Source: Bacteroidaceae bacterium (lineage in GTDB: Bacteria; Bacteroidota; Bacteroidia; Bacteroidales; Bacteroidaceae). Taken from it: DNA of 46,469 bases. Below, piece after piece: positions 2,359 to 27,876 of this stretch. Position 1 is the stretch's first letter, and every line of letters starts with the position of its first letter. Location: assembly GCA_017540585.1 (NCBI GenBank), contig JAFYAT010000102.1, forward strand, positions 111,221-157,689. The letters are read 5' to 3'. Position numbers and translations under genes: made by a program. Under the pieces are notes generated by a model, which made no database searches, was not told the origin of the DNA, and worked only from the letters and a program-made list of their open reading frames with translations.

Positions 2359-4116
2359 ATGACTGACATTCAGAATCCTGCAGTTGAGCCAGTAGAGACT
2401 CCAGCAGAAGAAGTGAAGACAACAACTGCTCCTATCCAGAGCAAAGAAGAAGTTCTCGCACGCCTCGACAAGATTCTCGAGACAGGAGAGGAAGTAGCAC
2501 GACAGGACCTCGACATCCTCAAGAATGCGTTCTACCGCTTGCAGAAGCAGGAGACCGACGAGGCTTACAAGGCTTACATCGCCGAGGGCGGAAACCCTGA
2601 CGAGTATGTACCAGCACCTCTCGACGACGAGGCACAGTTCAAGGCAAAGATGAGCCTCATCAAGGAGCGCCGCGCCAAGGCTGCCGAAGAACTCGAGAGA
2701 CAGAAGGAGGAGAACTACAACAAGAAGCTTGAAATCATCGAGAGCATCAAGACTATGCTCGCCACACCTGATGAGGTGAACAAGAACTACAATGACTTCA
2801 AGCAGTTGCAGGAACAGTGGAACGAGATTAAGCTCGTGCCAGCTGACAAGGCAACAGACCTTTGGAAGACTTACCAGATGTACGTAGAGCAGTTCTACGA
2901 CAATCTCAAGATAAACAACGAGCTCCGTGCTTACGACTTCAAGAAGAACCTCGAGCTCAAGACAGCACTCTGCGAGAAGGCTGAGGCACTCGCCTCTGAG
3001 GAAGACGTGGTGGCAGCATTCCGCACACTCCAGCAGCTCCATCAGGATTTCCGCGAGATAGGACCTGTGGCAAGCGAGATTCGTGAGGAGATATGGACAC
3101 GCTTCAAGAATGCCTCAACAGTAGTCAACAAGCGTCATCAGGACTTCTTCGAGTCACGCAAGCAGAAGGAGGAGGACAACCTCGCACAGAAGACTGCCAT
3201 CTGCGAACAGGTGGAAGGTCTCGACCTCAGCGCACTCAAGACATTCGCCGATTGGAACGCTCTCACAGAGAAGGTCATCGAGCTTCAGGCACAGTGGAAG
3301 ACCATCGGTTTCGCTCCACAGAAGATGAACGTGCAGATATTCGAGCGTTTCCGCAACGCCTGCGACGAGTTCTTCAACCGCAAGCAGGAATACTTCAAGA
3401 CTGTACGCAACAGCCTCAACGAGAACTACGAGAAGAAGCTCGCACTCTGCGAGAAGGCTGAGGCACTCAAGGACAGCCAGGACTGGAAGGCAACAACCGA
3501 CGCACTCATCGAGCTCCAGAAGCAGTGGAAGGAGATAGGCACCGTGCCTAAGAAGGTGAGTGAGGAGATATGGAAGCGTTTCAACGACGCCTGCGACGCC
3601 TTCTTCGCAGCAAAGAAAGAGGCAACAAGCGACCAGCGTCAGGAGCAGACAGAGAACCTTGCAAAGAAGAAGTCAATCATCGAGCGCCTTGCAGCCATCG
3701 ACCCTAAGGACCTCGAAAACGAGTTGCGCGAGAAGCTCCGTGAGGCACAGGACGAGTGGAACAAGATAGGTCACGTGCCATTCAAGGAGAAGGACAAGCT
3801 CTTCAAGGCTTTCCGTGAGCAGATGGACCGTCTCTACGGTGCTGCCAACGAGAATGCAACACGTCGCCGTGTCAACAAGTTCAAGAGCGACATTGCAGAG
3901 GGTGACACATCACGCATCCGCGAGCGTCTCCTCCGTCAGAAGGACATCCTCACCAACGAACTCAAGACATACGAGAACAACCTTGGCTTCCTCAACCTTG
4001 GCAAGAACAGCAAGGGCAACGGCCTCGTCGAGGAGCTTAACCGCAAGATGAACAAGCTCAAGTCTGACCTCGAAGAGGTTAAGGAAAAGCTTGCTGCACT
4101 CAAGAAAGAGAATTGA
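2359..4116 (+). CDS. DUF349-repeat protein
   Basis: A 585-residue, highly charged, helical protein with no signal peptide or membrane segment, so probably cytoplasmic. It contains about five DUF349 repeats recognisable by a Trp/Phe-x-x-Ile-Gly/Val-x-x-Pro core followed by an aromatic-rich helix: QWNEIKLVP, DFREIGPVA, QWKTIGFAP, QWKEIGTVP and EWNKIGHVP. The C-terminus (about residues 530-580) is a predicted coiled coil rich in Lys/Glu/Leu. DUF349 proteins are widespread in Bacteroidetes but their function is not established to my knowledge. Gene stands alone, 87 bases after cdsA, and ends before a clear terminator. Confidence 0.85.
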   Translation: MTDIQNPAVEPVETPAEEVKTTTAPIQSKEEVLARLDKILETGEEVARQDLDILKNAFYRLQKQETDEAYKAYIAEGGNPDEYVPAPLDDEAQFKAKMSLIKERRAKAAEELERQKEENYNKKLEIIESIKTMLATPDEVNKNYNDFKQLQEQWNEIKLVPADKATDLWKTYQMYVEQFYDNLKINNELRAYDFKKNLELKTALCEKAEALASEEDVVAAFRTLQQLHQDFREIGPVASEIREEIWTRFKNASTVVNKRHQDFFESRKQKEEDNLAQKTAICEQVEGLDLSALKTFADWNALTEKVIELQAQWKTIGFAPQKMNVQIFERFRNACDEFFNRKQEYFKTVRNSLNENYEKKLALCEKAEALKDSQDWKATTDALIELQKQWKEIGTVPKKVSEEIWKRFNDACDAFFAAKKEATSDQRQEQTENLAKKKSIIERLAAIDPKDLENELREKLREAQDEWNKIGHVPFKEKDKLFKAFREQMDRLYGAANENATRRRVNKFKSDIAEGDTSRIRERLLRQKDILTNELKTYENNLGFLNLGKNSKGNGLVEELNRKMNKLKSDLEEVKEKLAALKKEN

Positions 4117-4239: not shown

Positions 4240-4410
4240 GTGCCCCTCTCCCCTACAGAAAGGACTATGCGTCCCTTTAGTAACTACTCCCCTCCATTCA
4301 GGCGAATGAGGGCGTAGAAGAGAGACTAAATGTCTCTCTGTCCCAAAATGAGGGGAGAGCAGTGCCCTGCTCGACGGAGGGCAAAGGGTCGGGGGATGGT
4401 CCGCCACTAC
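4240..4410. repeat. G/C-run-rich spacer block
   Basis: A gene-free stretch with CCCCTCTCCCC at its left and GGGTCGGGGGATGGTCC at its right, plus an internal AGAGAGACTAAATGTCTCTCT hairpin. The right edge resembles GGTTGGGGGAAGGTCC beside surE. I read it as a degenerate member of the same intergenic repeat group. A short open frame exists on the minus strand but looks non-coding. Confidence 0.4.
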
Positions 4411-4446: not shown

Positions 4447-4745
4447 TTGTTGCCCGTAAATTCTTCGTTTTGCCGAGACAAATTAACCTCTTGATGCCGA
4501 TAAATTATCAAAACCACTAAGTGATTTGTTAAAATTGCACACTGATTTATTAAAATCACTGAGTGATTTTAATAAATCAGTGTGCAATTTTAAGAATTAA
4601 TGGTGAACAAACAGAAAATTTACCATGGTAAACGGAAAAATTTATCGTGGTGAATGAAAGAATTTACCGCCATCATCCGATTTTATTACGCCTTCTGTCG
4701 TATTTGCTAATCGCAGATAGCAGATGTGCCAGCCACTTTCAGGTG
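4447..4745 (+). repeat. ~300-base array element, copy 1 (21-22-base period)
   Basis: Begins TTGTTGCCCGTAAATTC and ends CCACTTTCAGGTG. From 4456 to 4714 it divides into twelve consecutive units of 21 or 22 bases, starting at 4456, 4477, 4499, 4521, 4542, 4563, 4584, 4605, 4627, 4649, 4671 and 4693. Most units have an A/T core (AAATT or ATTT) with a variable edge. A second copy in reverse orientation lies at 17334-17610 and lacks exactly one 22-base unit. No open frame; the mixed 21/22 period argues against coding. Function unknown; a MITE-like or structural element is possible. Confidence 0.75.
4529..4593. repeat. Perfect 65-base palindrome inside copy 1
   Basis: Two 32-base arms (4529-4560 and 4562-4593) are exact reverse complements around a single G at 4561; every pair was checked by eye. 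The centre reads CACTGAGTG. It spans units 4-7 of the array. As DNA it could extrude a cruciform; as RNA a long hairpin. Confidence 0.9.
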
Positions 4746-4839: not shown

Positions 4840-5514
4840 TCAGAAGTAGAAGCGTGGACCGACAAGCAATGAGATATGCTGGAAACCACGGGATTCGTAT
4901 TTCTGCTTCACATTCTCAGGTGCATGGAAACGGTCTGTCCTGTAACGAGCCTCAACACCAAGACTAAAAGTGCGGTTAAACTTGTACTCACAACCTACGC
5001 CGAGAACAGCACCAAAGCCCGTCTCATCAGAATCTGTATCACTATAAAAAGATGGACCGAAACCAGTTGACGCAGACCATACCCAATCCAATGTTGTTGT
5101 ATATTTATACACATAGGCTACACCAATATGATAAAGGCTGAAATTCCAATATTTTTCATATTCCGCCTTTCCTGTTGCAACCGTAACACGTACGCCATGC
5201 TGACCACCATATTCGCCCCAGAAATGCTCATAGTCTAACTGCAAGCCATATATTCCAGGATGAAGAATTTTATCTTTCCTTTCATAATATACATCAGAGG
5301 TGATTTCACCTAATGAATAACTTAAACGTATCGAGTTATGAGTAGGCTCATACAGATACGGCTTGTCACTTGGCATCAACTCATGAACGGTCTTAGACGA
5401 CTTTTCCGTCTTTGGTCTTGCTTCACCAGTAGAAAAGCTATACACATCATCCTGTGCTGATGCACTCAAACTGAACAATGCAATAATAGAAGTCAGATAT
5501 AAAATTCTTTTCAT
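4840..5514 (-). CDS. Small outer-membrane beta-barrel protein A
   Basis: A 224-residue secreted protein: a clear signal peptide (MKRILYLTSIIALFSLSASA, cleavage before QDD), alternating aromatic/polar strands and a C-terminal LLVGPRFYF typical of outer-membrane barrels. It is a close paralogue of the next gene upstream (5546-6172). Both share SSxxxYxPTHNxIR-like and TSDVYY segments, the YKYTTTLxWVWS-like block, GFGAVxGVGCxYK and the end FxHISLLVGPRFYF. The two lie in tandem, 31 bases apart, and are presumably one transcript. Function unknown; porin-like or OmpW-like are guesses only. Confidence 0.75.
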   Translation of the reverse strand: MKRILYLTSIIALFSLSASAQDDVYSFSTGEARPKTEKSSKTVHELMPSDKPYLYEPTHNSIRLSYSLGEITSDVYYERKDKILHPGIYGLQLDYEHFWGEYGGQHGVRVTVATGKAEYEKYWNFSLYHIGVAYVYKYTTTLDWVWSASTGFGPSFYSDTDSDETGFGAVLGVGCEYKFNRTFSLGVEARYRTDRFHAPENVKQKYESRGFQHISLLVGPRFYF

Positions 5515-11321: not shown

Positions 11322-11374
11322 AGGTTTAGAGTTTTTATCTGATTAATATTTGTTCTTACGTCACTCCACAGGAG

Positions 11375-11429
11375 AGTCAGTACTTAGTCGCTACTGAGTC
11401 AGTACTTAGTCACTACTTTGCCGCTACTT
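11375..11429. repeat. 11-base tandem array, 5 units
   Basis: Gap-free 11-base units: AGTCAGTACTT, AGTCGCTACTG, AGTCAGTACTT, AGTCACTACTT, TGCCGCTACTT. Lies between the DUF1573 gene and meaB. The 12-mer CAGTACTTAGTC recurs as its reverse complement at 35288-35299. Confidence 0.75.
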
Positions 11430-15778: not shown

Positions 15779-15796
15779 CTTGCTATGCAAGCAAGT

Positions 15797-15839
15797 AGTT
15801 AGCGGGAGTTAACAGGAAGTTAACAAGGAGTTAACGGAC
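15797..15839. repeat. GTTAAC array, left arm (10-11-base period)
   Basis: Units AGTTAGCGGG, AGTTAACAGGA, AGTTAACAAGG, AGTTAACGGAC. The final GGAGTTAACGGAC (15827-15839) is the exact reverse complement of 15944-15956 in the right arm. Confidence 0.75.
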
Positions 15840-15891
15840 GATACTCCGAATGAATCAATCTCAAATCTGTAATCTATGCTTTCGGTTCATA

Positions 15892-15907
15892 TCGGGACGT
15901 ATAAATT
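15892..15907 (+). other. 16-base motif shared with unit B
   Basis: TCGGGACGTATAAATT here and TCGGGACGCATAAATT at 23520-23535 differ by one base. Both lie in spacers of the two sigma/anti-sigma units, but in opposite orientation relative to the genes. Confidence 0.4.
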
Positions 15908-15946
15908 TAACATTATAGACTTGACATCGGCAAACAGACATTCGTC

Positions 15947-15986
15947 CGTTAACTCCCGTTAACTTCCGCTAACTTCTATTAACTCC
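15947..15986. repeat. GTTAAC array, right arm (10-base period)
   Basis: CGTTAACTCC, CGTTAACTTC, CGCTAACTTC, TATTAACTCC in exact tandem. It faces the left arm at 15797-15839 across about 105 bases and lies just upstream of the secreted-protein gene, so it could be in its leader. Confidence 0.75.
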
Positions 15987-16010
15987 CATAAATTATAAAC
16001 AAGAACCAAC

Positions 16011-17333: not shown

Positions 17334-17610
17334 CACCTGAAAGCGGCTGGCATATCTGCTATCTGCGATTAGCAAATACGGCAGAAGGCGTAATAAAATC
17401 TGATGATGGTGGTAAATTCTTTCATTTACCACGATAAATTTATTGTCTGTTCACGATAAATTCTTAAAATTGCATACTAATTTATTAAAATCACTCAGTG
17501 ATTTTGTAAAATCAGTGTGTGATTTTAATAAATCACTGAGTGAATTTAATAATTTATCGGCATCAAGAGGTTAATTTATCTCGGCAAAACGAAAAAGTTA
17601 CGGGCAACAA
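17334..17610 (-). repeat. ~280-base array element, copy 2 (inverted)
   Basis: Reverse-complement copy of the element at 4447-4745. Read on the minus strand it has the same ordered units (for example GATAAATTAACCTCTTGATG then CC, and TTCTGCCGTATTTGCTAATC then GC). Where copy 1 has three units at 4605-4670, this copy has two, so it is one 22-base unit shorter. Its central palindrome is imperfect. Fills the spacer between the terminator at 17275 and the HU-like gene. Confidence 0.75.
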
Positions 17611-17651: not shown

Positions 17652-18293
17652 ATGACACAGTACATAAAGACGGAAATGCCGAACTTTCAGGAGGAAGGGA
17701 CAAAGAGGTGTTGCTATCGTGTGGCATCACGAGGCGTGATTGAGCAGGACGAGCTGCTCGAACAGATGTGCCGTTACGGACGGTCGGGCATAACCGTGGG
17801 TGCGGCAAAGGCGGTGCTCATACAGTTGGCGGAGGTCATGCAGTATTACCTTGCCAATGGTCACAGCGTGAGGCTTGACGACATCGGCAGCTTCAGCCTC
17901 TCACTCGGACTGAAGGAAGGAAGGGAGAGCGAGGAACTGGACGGCGACGATGCCAAGCGCAATGCACGAAGCTTACACGTGAAGGGAGTCAACTTCCGTG
18001 CCAACAAGCAGTTCCTGCGTGACATCAACCGTGCCTGCAAGCTCGAACTGGGCGGCACATCACGCATGAACCGCTCGCCTTTCAGCAAGGAAGAGCGCAT
18101 CAGCAAGGCTGTGGAGCACATCAAGACTCACAGCTACATGCGTGTGGACGATTATGTATCGCTCACACGGTTGCCAAAGTCCACCGCCACTCGCGAACTC
18201 CATGACTATGCGCACAGCGACGGCGCCCTGTTCGTAGCAAAGGGAAGACGGGCAGCGCTGGTGTATGTGCTTGCTCAGCCGCAACATGAATAA
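17652..18293 (+). CDS. HU-family DNA-binding protein with C-terminal extension
   Basis: 213 residues. Residues about 1-125 resemble the Bacteroidetes HU-like (HU-HIG) domain: QLAEVMQYYLANGHSVRLDD then IGSFSLSLGLKEG, and GVNFRANKQFLRDIN. The C-terminal part (about 135-213: SKEERISKAVEHIKTHSYMR, then VSLTRLPKSTATRELHDYA and the GALFVAKGRRAALVYV end) reads like a winged-helix fold, so this is a two-domain DNA-binding protein. Likely nucleoid or regulatory. Gene stands alone between repeat-rich spacers. Confidence 0.8.
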   Translation: MTQYIKTEMPNFQEEGTKRCCYRVASRGVIEQDELLEQMCRYGRSGITVGAAKAVLIQLAEVMQYYLANGHSVRLDDIGSFSLSLGLKEGRESEELDGDDAKRNARSLHVKGVNFRANKQFLRDINRACKLELGGTSRMNRSPFSKEERISKAVEHIKTHSYMRVDDYVSLTRLPKSTATRELHDYAHSDGALFVAKGRRAALVYVLAQPQHE

Positions 18294-18306: not shown

Positions 18307-18391
18307 GGGGCACGAATTATCACCAATTATTCACGAATTTTCATTAAATATTTATGTTAATTCGTGGTTAATTAATGATAATTCGTGCCCC
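18307..18391. repeat. CACGAATT dyad array (10-11-base period)
   Basis: Outer arms GGGGCACGAATTATCA (18307-18322) and TGATAATTCGTGCCCC (18376-18391) pair perfectly over 16 bases. The interior reads as 10-11-base units (GCACGAATTAT, CACCAATTATT, CACGAATTTT, CATTAAATATT, TATGTTAATTC, GTGGTTAATTA). Lies between two convergent genes and could serve as a bidirectional transcript-end structure. Confidence 0.7.
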
Positions 18392-18418
18392 AAAATCAGC
18401 ACCAACAGTGCAAAAACA

Positions 18419-27778: not shown

Positions 27779-27866
27779 AGTACGTAGGCGTACGTACTCA
27801 TAGTACGTGCCCAACAAACTGTGAGTACGTTCGCAACGTACTACGAGTTCGTTCACGACGTACTTT
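27779..27866. repeat. 11-base array, eight units, ACGTAC-cored
   Basis: Exactly 88 bases in eight units: AGTACGTAGGC, GTACGTACTCA, TAGTACGTGCC, CAACAAACTGT, GAGTACGTTCG, CAACGTACTAC, GAGTTCGTTCA, CGACGTACTTT. AGTACGT and ACGTACT alternate, giving local dyads. It ends 10 bases from the rel stop codon and lies after the MerR terminator, so it is the 3' region of rel. Confidence 0.8.
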
Positions 27867-27876
27867 CACCGTATTG

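Follow-up and report, generated by a model that had tools for sequence, protein, structure and literature searches.

The locus and its repeated element

The window, a stretch of 46,469 nucleotides from one contig of a Bacteroidaceae genome (GCA_017540585.1, called G000 below), carries two inverted copies of an intergenic element (Table 1). Copy 1 (c1) lies in the gap between convergent genes. Copy 2 (c2) lies before a gene for an HU-HIG protein, with 41 bases from its end to the start codon and no match to the TAnnTTTG promoter in the gap. The protein clears the curated cut-offs of both profiles that recognise it (PF18291, 66.6 bits against 26.2; TIGR01201 HU_rel, 75 against 68.6). A PDB sequence search with it gave no match, and its single-sequence structure prediction has a pLDDT of 34.

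The element was noticed in a reading made from the sequence only, which described two inverted copies built of consecutive units of 21 or 22 bases and differing by one unit. This description is sound. The copies align end to end at 84% identity, and the period is real by autocorrelation, with z scores at lags 21 and 22 of 6.0 and 5.2 in c1, of 6.1 and 4.4 in c2, and of 5.3 and 3.9 in a third copy of this genome (c3, G000:C11:54860-55076); none of 1000 first-order resampled sequences reached the maximum of any of the three. The 22-base unit said to be missing from c2 appears as a single gap of 22 alignment columns, and no open reading frame of at least 80 aa overlaps either copy. The suggestion that the element changes by whole units holds as one way of change, seen between c1 and c2 and again in an orthologous element (G000:C27 and G029:C117) that has fewer core units in G029. 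A search for copies in relatives, which had been proposed, gave a divided answer. Related elements do occur in this genome and in the genus, but close copies were found in this genome only; elsewhere among the 101 genomes searched by nucleotide sequence, only G068 gave a hit, a marginal one of 33 bases.

Table 1. Features of the window (positions in the window) and example units of related arrays
Feature	Position or genome	Strand	Basis or remark
DUF349 gene, neighbour of c1	2359-4116	+	
Copy 1 (c1), putative satellite array between convergent genes	4447..4745	+	Alignment, autocorrelation
Core of c1, near-perfect inverted repeat of 21-bp palindromic units	4526..4596	.	35-nt arms, 97%, 1 nt between
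22-bp arm unit present in c1, absent from c2	~4614..4636	+	Alignment; edges ambiguous by 1-2 bases
Non-repeated tail of ~70 bp within the shared block, common to c1 and c2	4671..4745	+	Alignment
OMP_b-brl gene, neighbour of c1	4840-5514	-	
Copy 2 (c2), home array directly upstream of HU-HIG gene	17334..17610	-	Alignment, autocorrelation, array scan
Palindrome across most of c2	17412..17601	.	94-nt arms at 71%
HU-HIG gene, 213 aa, proposed reader of the array	17652-18293	+	PF18291 E 2.9e-18; TIGR01201 HU_rel E 6.1e-21
Array unit TGATTCTTAAGAATCA	G039		Period 21
Array unit GGTAAAGTTTTACC	G004		Period 22
Array unit GTTACAnnTGTAAC	G013, G037, G014, G034		Period 23 (own count)
Home-array units GACTAACATTAGTC, TTGGTGnnnCACCAA, GAGCTAGCTC, AGTTACCCACTAACT	G000/G029/G032		Examples
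Home-array units AACCAAAGCTTTCGTT, GGAGTTAACTCC, GACTGTACAGTC	Other genera		Examples

Anatomy and symmetry

The element is an array, palindromic for the most part, in which 21-base palindromic core units stand between inverted 22-base arm units. This two-fold symmetric plan emerges from c1, c2, c3 and the related elements described below, with the units read by eye; the arm units, likewise read by eye, start with AATT and occur in inverted orientation on both sides of the core. The symmetry extends well beyond the centre. Among 28 related elements, agreement with the element's own reverse complement is strongest over the central 45 positions, and many of them still show raised values 95-115 bases off centre. 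An alignment of the cores has 84% of its cells paired, compared with 30-47% when it is slid, and compensatory changes of pairs are in no excess over shuffles; the pairs with most two-sided changes are 15-82, 19-78, 39-58 and 40-57. The orthologues at G000:C27 and G029:C117 (loci L009 and L010/L057) have a right arm 98% identical and a left part ~70% identical, besides differing in the number of core units.

Related arrays in the genus and beyond

The element at G000:C27 was found through a weak match, and from it others were traced in G000, G029 and G032. A covariance model (R1) built from 25 cores (alignment A1), with c1, c2 and c3 left out, recovers all three (E 2.4e-9, 2.6e-6 and 5.4e-6, respectively) and has matches in 10 of 45 genomes of the genus. 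Most matches fall in four genomes: G032 has 70 (35 places, both strands), G004 21 (14 places), G000 16 (8 places) and G039 16 (13 places). G013 has four (3 places), G037 two (1 place), and G014, G021, G029 and G034 one each, that of G021 being a different simple repeat. Among 17 R1 loci that were read, those from other species are the same kind of array with another unit (Table 1). When GTDB 220 species genomes were scanned for a pattern of the GGTAC form, 25 stretches came up, 20 of them in MAG RUI147, 2 in Methylobacter psychrophilus (real arrays) and 3 in actinobacteria (single sites). The arrays of M. psychrophilus, an unrelated gammaproteobacterium, are long and made of 21-bp palindromic units (L168:5670-5920 and L178:1300-1520).

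The period also shows in the wider intergenic DNA sampled from G000. Self-matches of 5-mers in ~354 kb of this genome peak between genes at lags 11, 21, 22, 44 and 66, besides 7 and 14, and those at lag 22 amount to 17.6 per 1000 in intergenic and 1.0 in coding DNA; this set is not random, its stretches having been picked partly for their elements, and ~9 kb including c1 are counted twice. The coding control of the pooled genus and outgroup sets was inflated by runs of N and has been left out. The pooled genus stretches (L088-L107) commonly contain intergenic repeats of period 7/14/21 (AATTAAC type), apparently a separate phenomenon. Without a filter for low complexity, arrays of period 21/22 occur in 35 of 153 gaps, and five resampled sets give 0-1.

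A preference for gaps between convergent genes was considered and rejected, since arrays occupy 7 of 21 convergent, 22 of 105 co-directional and 6 of 27 divergent gaps (P 0.26). The sites of 43 elements from several species are mixed as well (11 convergent, 15 co-directional, 6 divergent, 10 unclear and 1 inside an open reading frame), and 19 scanned genes facing away from arrays had no common function that we could see. Terminators were noticed beside arrays, by eye only.

Arrays before HU-HIG genes

The place of c2 directly before an HU-HIG gene is shared by three other elements found with R1, at G000:C89, at G029:C115 (the only R1 hit of that genome) and at G039:C20 (one of its 13 places). 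In all, 4 of the 78 R1 places are next to an HU-HIG gene, compared with ~0.8 expected for 15 such genes in an assumed 3000 (P 0.008). PF18291 has 3 to 23 matches in each of the 45 genomes, canonical HU being partly included. Relatives of the HU-HIG protein were found neither in viral contigs nor, with a custom model, in the outgroup stretches L108-L123. The family is reportedly the subject of a comparative paper of 2017, and none of the papers listed in literature searches was seen to deal with arrays before HU-HIG genes.

The upstream gaps of these genes were examined irrespective of R1. In G000, G029 and G032, 16 of 28 upstream gaps of PF18291 matches hold a tandem array (score at least 16, unfiltered), mostly of units unlike one another. 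For the counts that follow, an array was called where 17 or more positions of a 22-base window matched at a lag between 20 and 24, and a filter fixed post hoc, after part of the data had been read, removed repeats of low complexity or of 7 bases; gaps were counted if they measured at least 100 bases between open reading frames of at least 100 aa, as given by a simple ORF caller. In G000 and G029, 15 of the 21 gaps upstream of HU-HIG genes have an array (6.5 expected with length matching, P 1.5e-4), and 2 of the 18 downstream gaps do. Two genomes taken up after the idea was formed, G035 and G017, behave in the same way, with 10 of 17 upstream (expected 2.9, P 5e-5) and 0 of 12 downstream.

Eight genomes of the genus give 32 of 56 upstream gaps with an array, again mostly of different units. 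This sample comprises 90 loci for 111 PF18291 matches, identical proteins being counted once, and its length-matched background was drawn from G000, G029, G035 and G017 only. Genes for proteins of at least 195 aa have arrays in 16 of 21 upstream gaps (expected 5.3, a count reached in 0 of 100,000 draws) and in 2 of 11 downstream gaps; those for proteins of 120-194 aa have them in 16 of 35 (expected 7.8, P 0.0012) and 0 of 29. Canonical HU genes have arrays in 1 of 8 upstream and 2 of 6 downstream gaps. The upstream counts for long and for shorter proteins vary with the threshold (17/21 and 16/35 at 16; 12/21 and 13/35 at 18). The five gaps of long proteins without an array comprise two with odd frames (L223 and L340), one with a 7-base repeat (L274), one with a score of 16 (L267) and L215. 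Arrays also stand upstream of other genes, in 29 of 183 and 16 of 89 gaps. Not all home arrays, as those before HU-HIG genes are called here, are clearly palindromic, 7 of 33 passing a crude palindrome test.

The association extends to other genera. By tblastn, the window protein has ten homologues in sequence records from Bacteroides finegoldii, Phocaeicola massiliensis and Parabacteroides distasonis; these records are filed as plasmids and look chromosomal (some carry infB, rpsL or topA). Among the nine homologues with an upstream gap of at least 100 bases, six have an array at threshold 17 and eight at a score of at least 16, compared with none of six downstream gaps. Two more annotated HU genes in background stretches of the same species both have one (TAGTG-N12-CACTA; TAGATGATCGTCTA). 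For the three genera combined, arrays occur in 8 of 11 gaps before HU-HIG genes and 2 of 49 other gaps (Fisher P 2.6e-6), and all 10 proteins scanned among these 12 score above the PF18291 cut-off. The enrichment of arrays ahead of HU-HIG genes is shown for four genera.

The link between array and protein, and the satellites

The similarity of arrays tracks that of the proteins whose genes they precede (32 arrays, Mantel r 0.47, 0 of 5000 permutations). Nine of 496 pairs of arrays score at least 19, the null distribution having its 99.9th percentile at 18 and a maximum of 23 in 2000, and seven of the nine belong to proteins 58-88% identical. In the other two pairs, the c2 array resembles arrays of G039 and G004 though the proteins are 30-33% identical. 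The c2 array and that of its 60%-identical paralogue in G000 have a score of 15, within chance. Within the genus, the arrays that precede genes for long proteins have a period of 21 bp in 14 of 16 cases, and those of shorter proteins in 2 of 16 (P 4.9e-5, a value that ignores ancestry). The link with length fails in the other genera, where arrays before long proteins have period 21 in three cases and 22 in five; the period may therefore follow subfamily rather than length.

Joint descent of gene and array would account for part of this similarity. The recurrence of home units elsewhere on the chromosome, as arrays referred to here as satellites, argues for more than joint descent. Five of 11 home regions queried recur in their own genome: the unit of G000:C81 at ten more places, those of G029:C158 and G029:C92 at six and five, that of G000:C24:51531 at two and that of G000:C1 at one. 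The home at G029:C142 recurs in G000, no recurrence was found for the five queried homes L228, L233, L219, L229 and L236, and none of the 11 matched in G032 or G022. The home at G039:C20 has 12 further R1 places in its genome, and all four of those read have its unit.

For three large dispersed families, none of the HU-HIG genes examined carries a home array: the GGTAC family of G032 (35 R1 places; all four HU-HIG genes examined), the GGTAAA family of G004 (14 R1 places, five read; all eight) and the GTTACA type of G013, G037, G034 and G014 (13 of 17 HU-HIG genes of G013 examined). Incomplete MAGs may lie behind this.

Alternative explanations

The sequence-only reading had been reminded of the BrickBuilt repeats of Porphyromonas gingivalis, and the likeness is apt in being one of intergenic, dispersed tandem repeats of about two helical turns. 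In the parts of the published description used here, BrickBuilt consists of 23-nt tandem repeats in 19 dispersed intergenic copies, with varying unit number and predicted stem-loops; its ends are terminal inverted repeats of IS5 type (GAGACC..., Table 2), and in those parts its authors read it as a MITE, not as sites of a neighbouring HU-type protein (PMC4596501). Compared by description with these parts, it is the closest described thing to the window element, sharing two-turn units (23 nt against 21-22 bp) of varying number and differing in its IS5-type ends, whereas the core units of the window element are palindromic and of 21 bp. The ends of c1 (TTGTTGCCCG... and ...CTTTCAGGTG) show, by eye, no inverted-repeat relation to each other and no likeness to the BrickBuilt ends as described there, and the comparison in its MITE sense finds no support. 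The resemblance may be apt in a further respect: Table 1 of the same source places BrickBuilt_14, with 84 nt the shortest copy, before a plus-strand gene labelled PF00216, an HU-type family, its divergent neighbour on the other side being on the minus strand (PMC4596501).

It is unlikely that the element is mobile and non-autonomous in this MITE-like sense, carrying a minisatellite and standing beside the HU-HIG gene at c2 through an accident of insertion. Such an element would account for the 299-bp block with a non-repeated tail that c1 and c2 share at unrelated places, and for the family of G032 dispersed over 35 places. However, inspection of c1 and c2 by eye showed neither terminal inverted repeats nor a target duplication (at the copy 1 site, the contigs of G029 stop or are no longer syntenic). 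Furthermore, the arrays before HU-HIG genes occur in four genera and mostly have unrelated sequences, so they are not one element inserted by accident. REP/BIME elements are likewise dispersed intergenic palindromes in tandem, and differ in that their transposase, a Y1 enzyme of RAYT type (PF01797), was not found in two array-bearing genomes, G029 and G032, both incomplete (86% and 81%, respectively); G000 has one hit. Mobility of some kind is possible for whole blocks such as the 299-base unit of c1 and c2 with its tail.

An RNA device, in which the array is transcribed as part of the leader and folds into hairpins as an attenuator or stability element, has quite a low probability. The RNA of c1 folds much better than its shuffles (z -8.65), and several home arrays lie, by eye, between a TAnnTTTG promoter and the ATG. 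Yet c1 beats its shuffles as DNA too (z -7.06), c1 and other satellites are found in gaps of convergent genes or in other, unrelated ones, and several arrays of G035, G017, G004 and G039 are placed, again by eye, upstream of the promoter. The mismatches within the palindromes of the 28 elements are about equally G.T (294) and A.C (275), with a per-element heterogeneity of P 0.02 and with elements that are not independent, as copies share ancestors; nothing in these counts points to RNA pairing in particular, and they suggest that the symmetry is kept at the DNA level. At gathering scores, Rfam found only tRNAs in the window and seven loci, and no match for the element.

Neutral minisatellites, arising by slippage at short palindromes in gaps that are simply long beside HU-HIG genes, are improbable: tandem arrays are indeed frequent in the intergenic DNA of the clade (the unfiltered 35 of 153 gaps), and more so in longer gaps, but the enrichment holds in length-matched tests, the downstream gaps of the same HU-HIG genes are mostly without arrays, and unrelated sequences of G000 share the peaks at 11, 21-22, 44 and 66, besides 7 and 14, when lags 4-69 are scanned. 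The lags of 21-23 in the home arrays themselves are no evidence against slippage, because only lags 20-24 were scanned.

Proposed reading: arrays as operators and satellites for HU-HIG proteins

The element is probably, to judge by its sequence and setting, one of a class of arrays that serve HU-HIG proteins as operators at home and as satellite sites elsewhere. In the array, binding sites for an HU-HIG protein, which has an HU-like fold, would follow one another in tandem at a distance of two helical turns, and the protein dimers would sit side by side along the DNA with one unit to a dimer. Copy 2, which lies in the leader region of the HU-HIG gene, would be the home array and would let the protein control its own gene. 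Copy 1 and the copy on C11 would be satellites, the same type of site elsewhere on the chromosome, where the protein may mark or structure other loci; they may have spread by the copying of whole blocks such as the 299 bp with tail. As the arrays of paralogous HU-HIG genes are mostly of unlike unit sequence, each protein would read its own address.

The association of arrays with HU-HIG genes is real and surprising, and the mechanism is concrete and testable; binding and function are what we infer. The wider proposal, of a DNA address system in Bacteroidales that is specific to paralogues, is a plausible one that we put somewhat short of probable. Each protein of a large HU-like family would have its own two-turn array unit before its own gene, copied to satellites, and array and protein would diversify together.

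Operators of a comparable layout are known. The paired ARG boxes of ArgR are tandem operators (18 bp + 3 bp) of an autoregulated DNA-binding protein, and like the arrays they are palindromic sites, one for every two helical turns, set before the gene of the regulator. The arrays differ in having many units, an HU-like proposed reader, mostly unlike units among paralogues, and dispersed satellites of several units. ParR/parC and other centromere-like arrays consist of phased repeats bound by stacked dimers, which is the arrangement proposed here, whereas the arrays of the window type lie at many chromosomal loci.

HU-family proteins are textbook examples of DNA benders that are mostly indifferent to sequence. 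If HU-HIG paralogues each recognise a private tandem site, this poorly characterised family gains a testable function, and the binding site of a member could be predicted from the sequence before its gene. Part of the unexplained intergenic repeats would be explained, perhaps also BrickBuilt, and the genomes would offer a natural series of matched pairs of protein and site for studying how DNA specificity diverges.

Other repeats in the window

Several other repeats lie near the element. A block of ~120 bp beside copy 1 (4273-4402) belongs to another dispersed family, present at more than 12 places in G029 with 83-91% identity. Just 3' of the HU-HIG gene (18308-18412) is a palindromic AATTCGTGC repeat with several copies in G029. 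At 15785-15999, inverted arrays of 11-bp GTTAAC units surround a spacer; G029 has several copies, and an orthologous pair of this type (L049 14459-14613 and L057 17152-17318) differs by one 11-bp arm unit. Arrays of 11 bp of another kind (AGTCAGTACTT) lie at 11364-11429 and in several more places of the sampled 0.35 Mb of G000, some of them before unrelated genes (MeaB, LpxD, DprA and RhaA). At 27790-27870, approximately four 22-bp units of the form AGTACGT..ACGTACT directly follow a terminator-like hairpin, and similar ones are found at L053 and L038.
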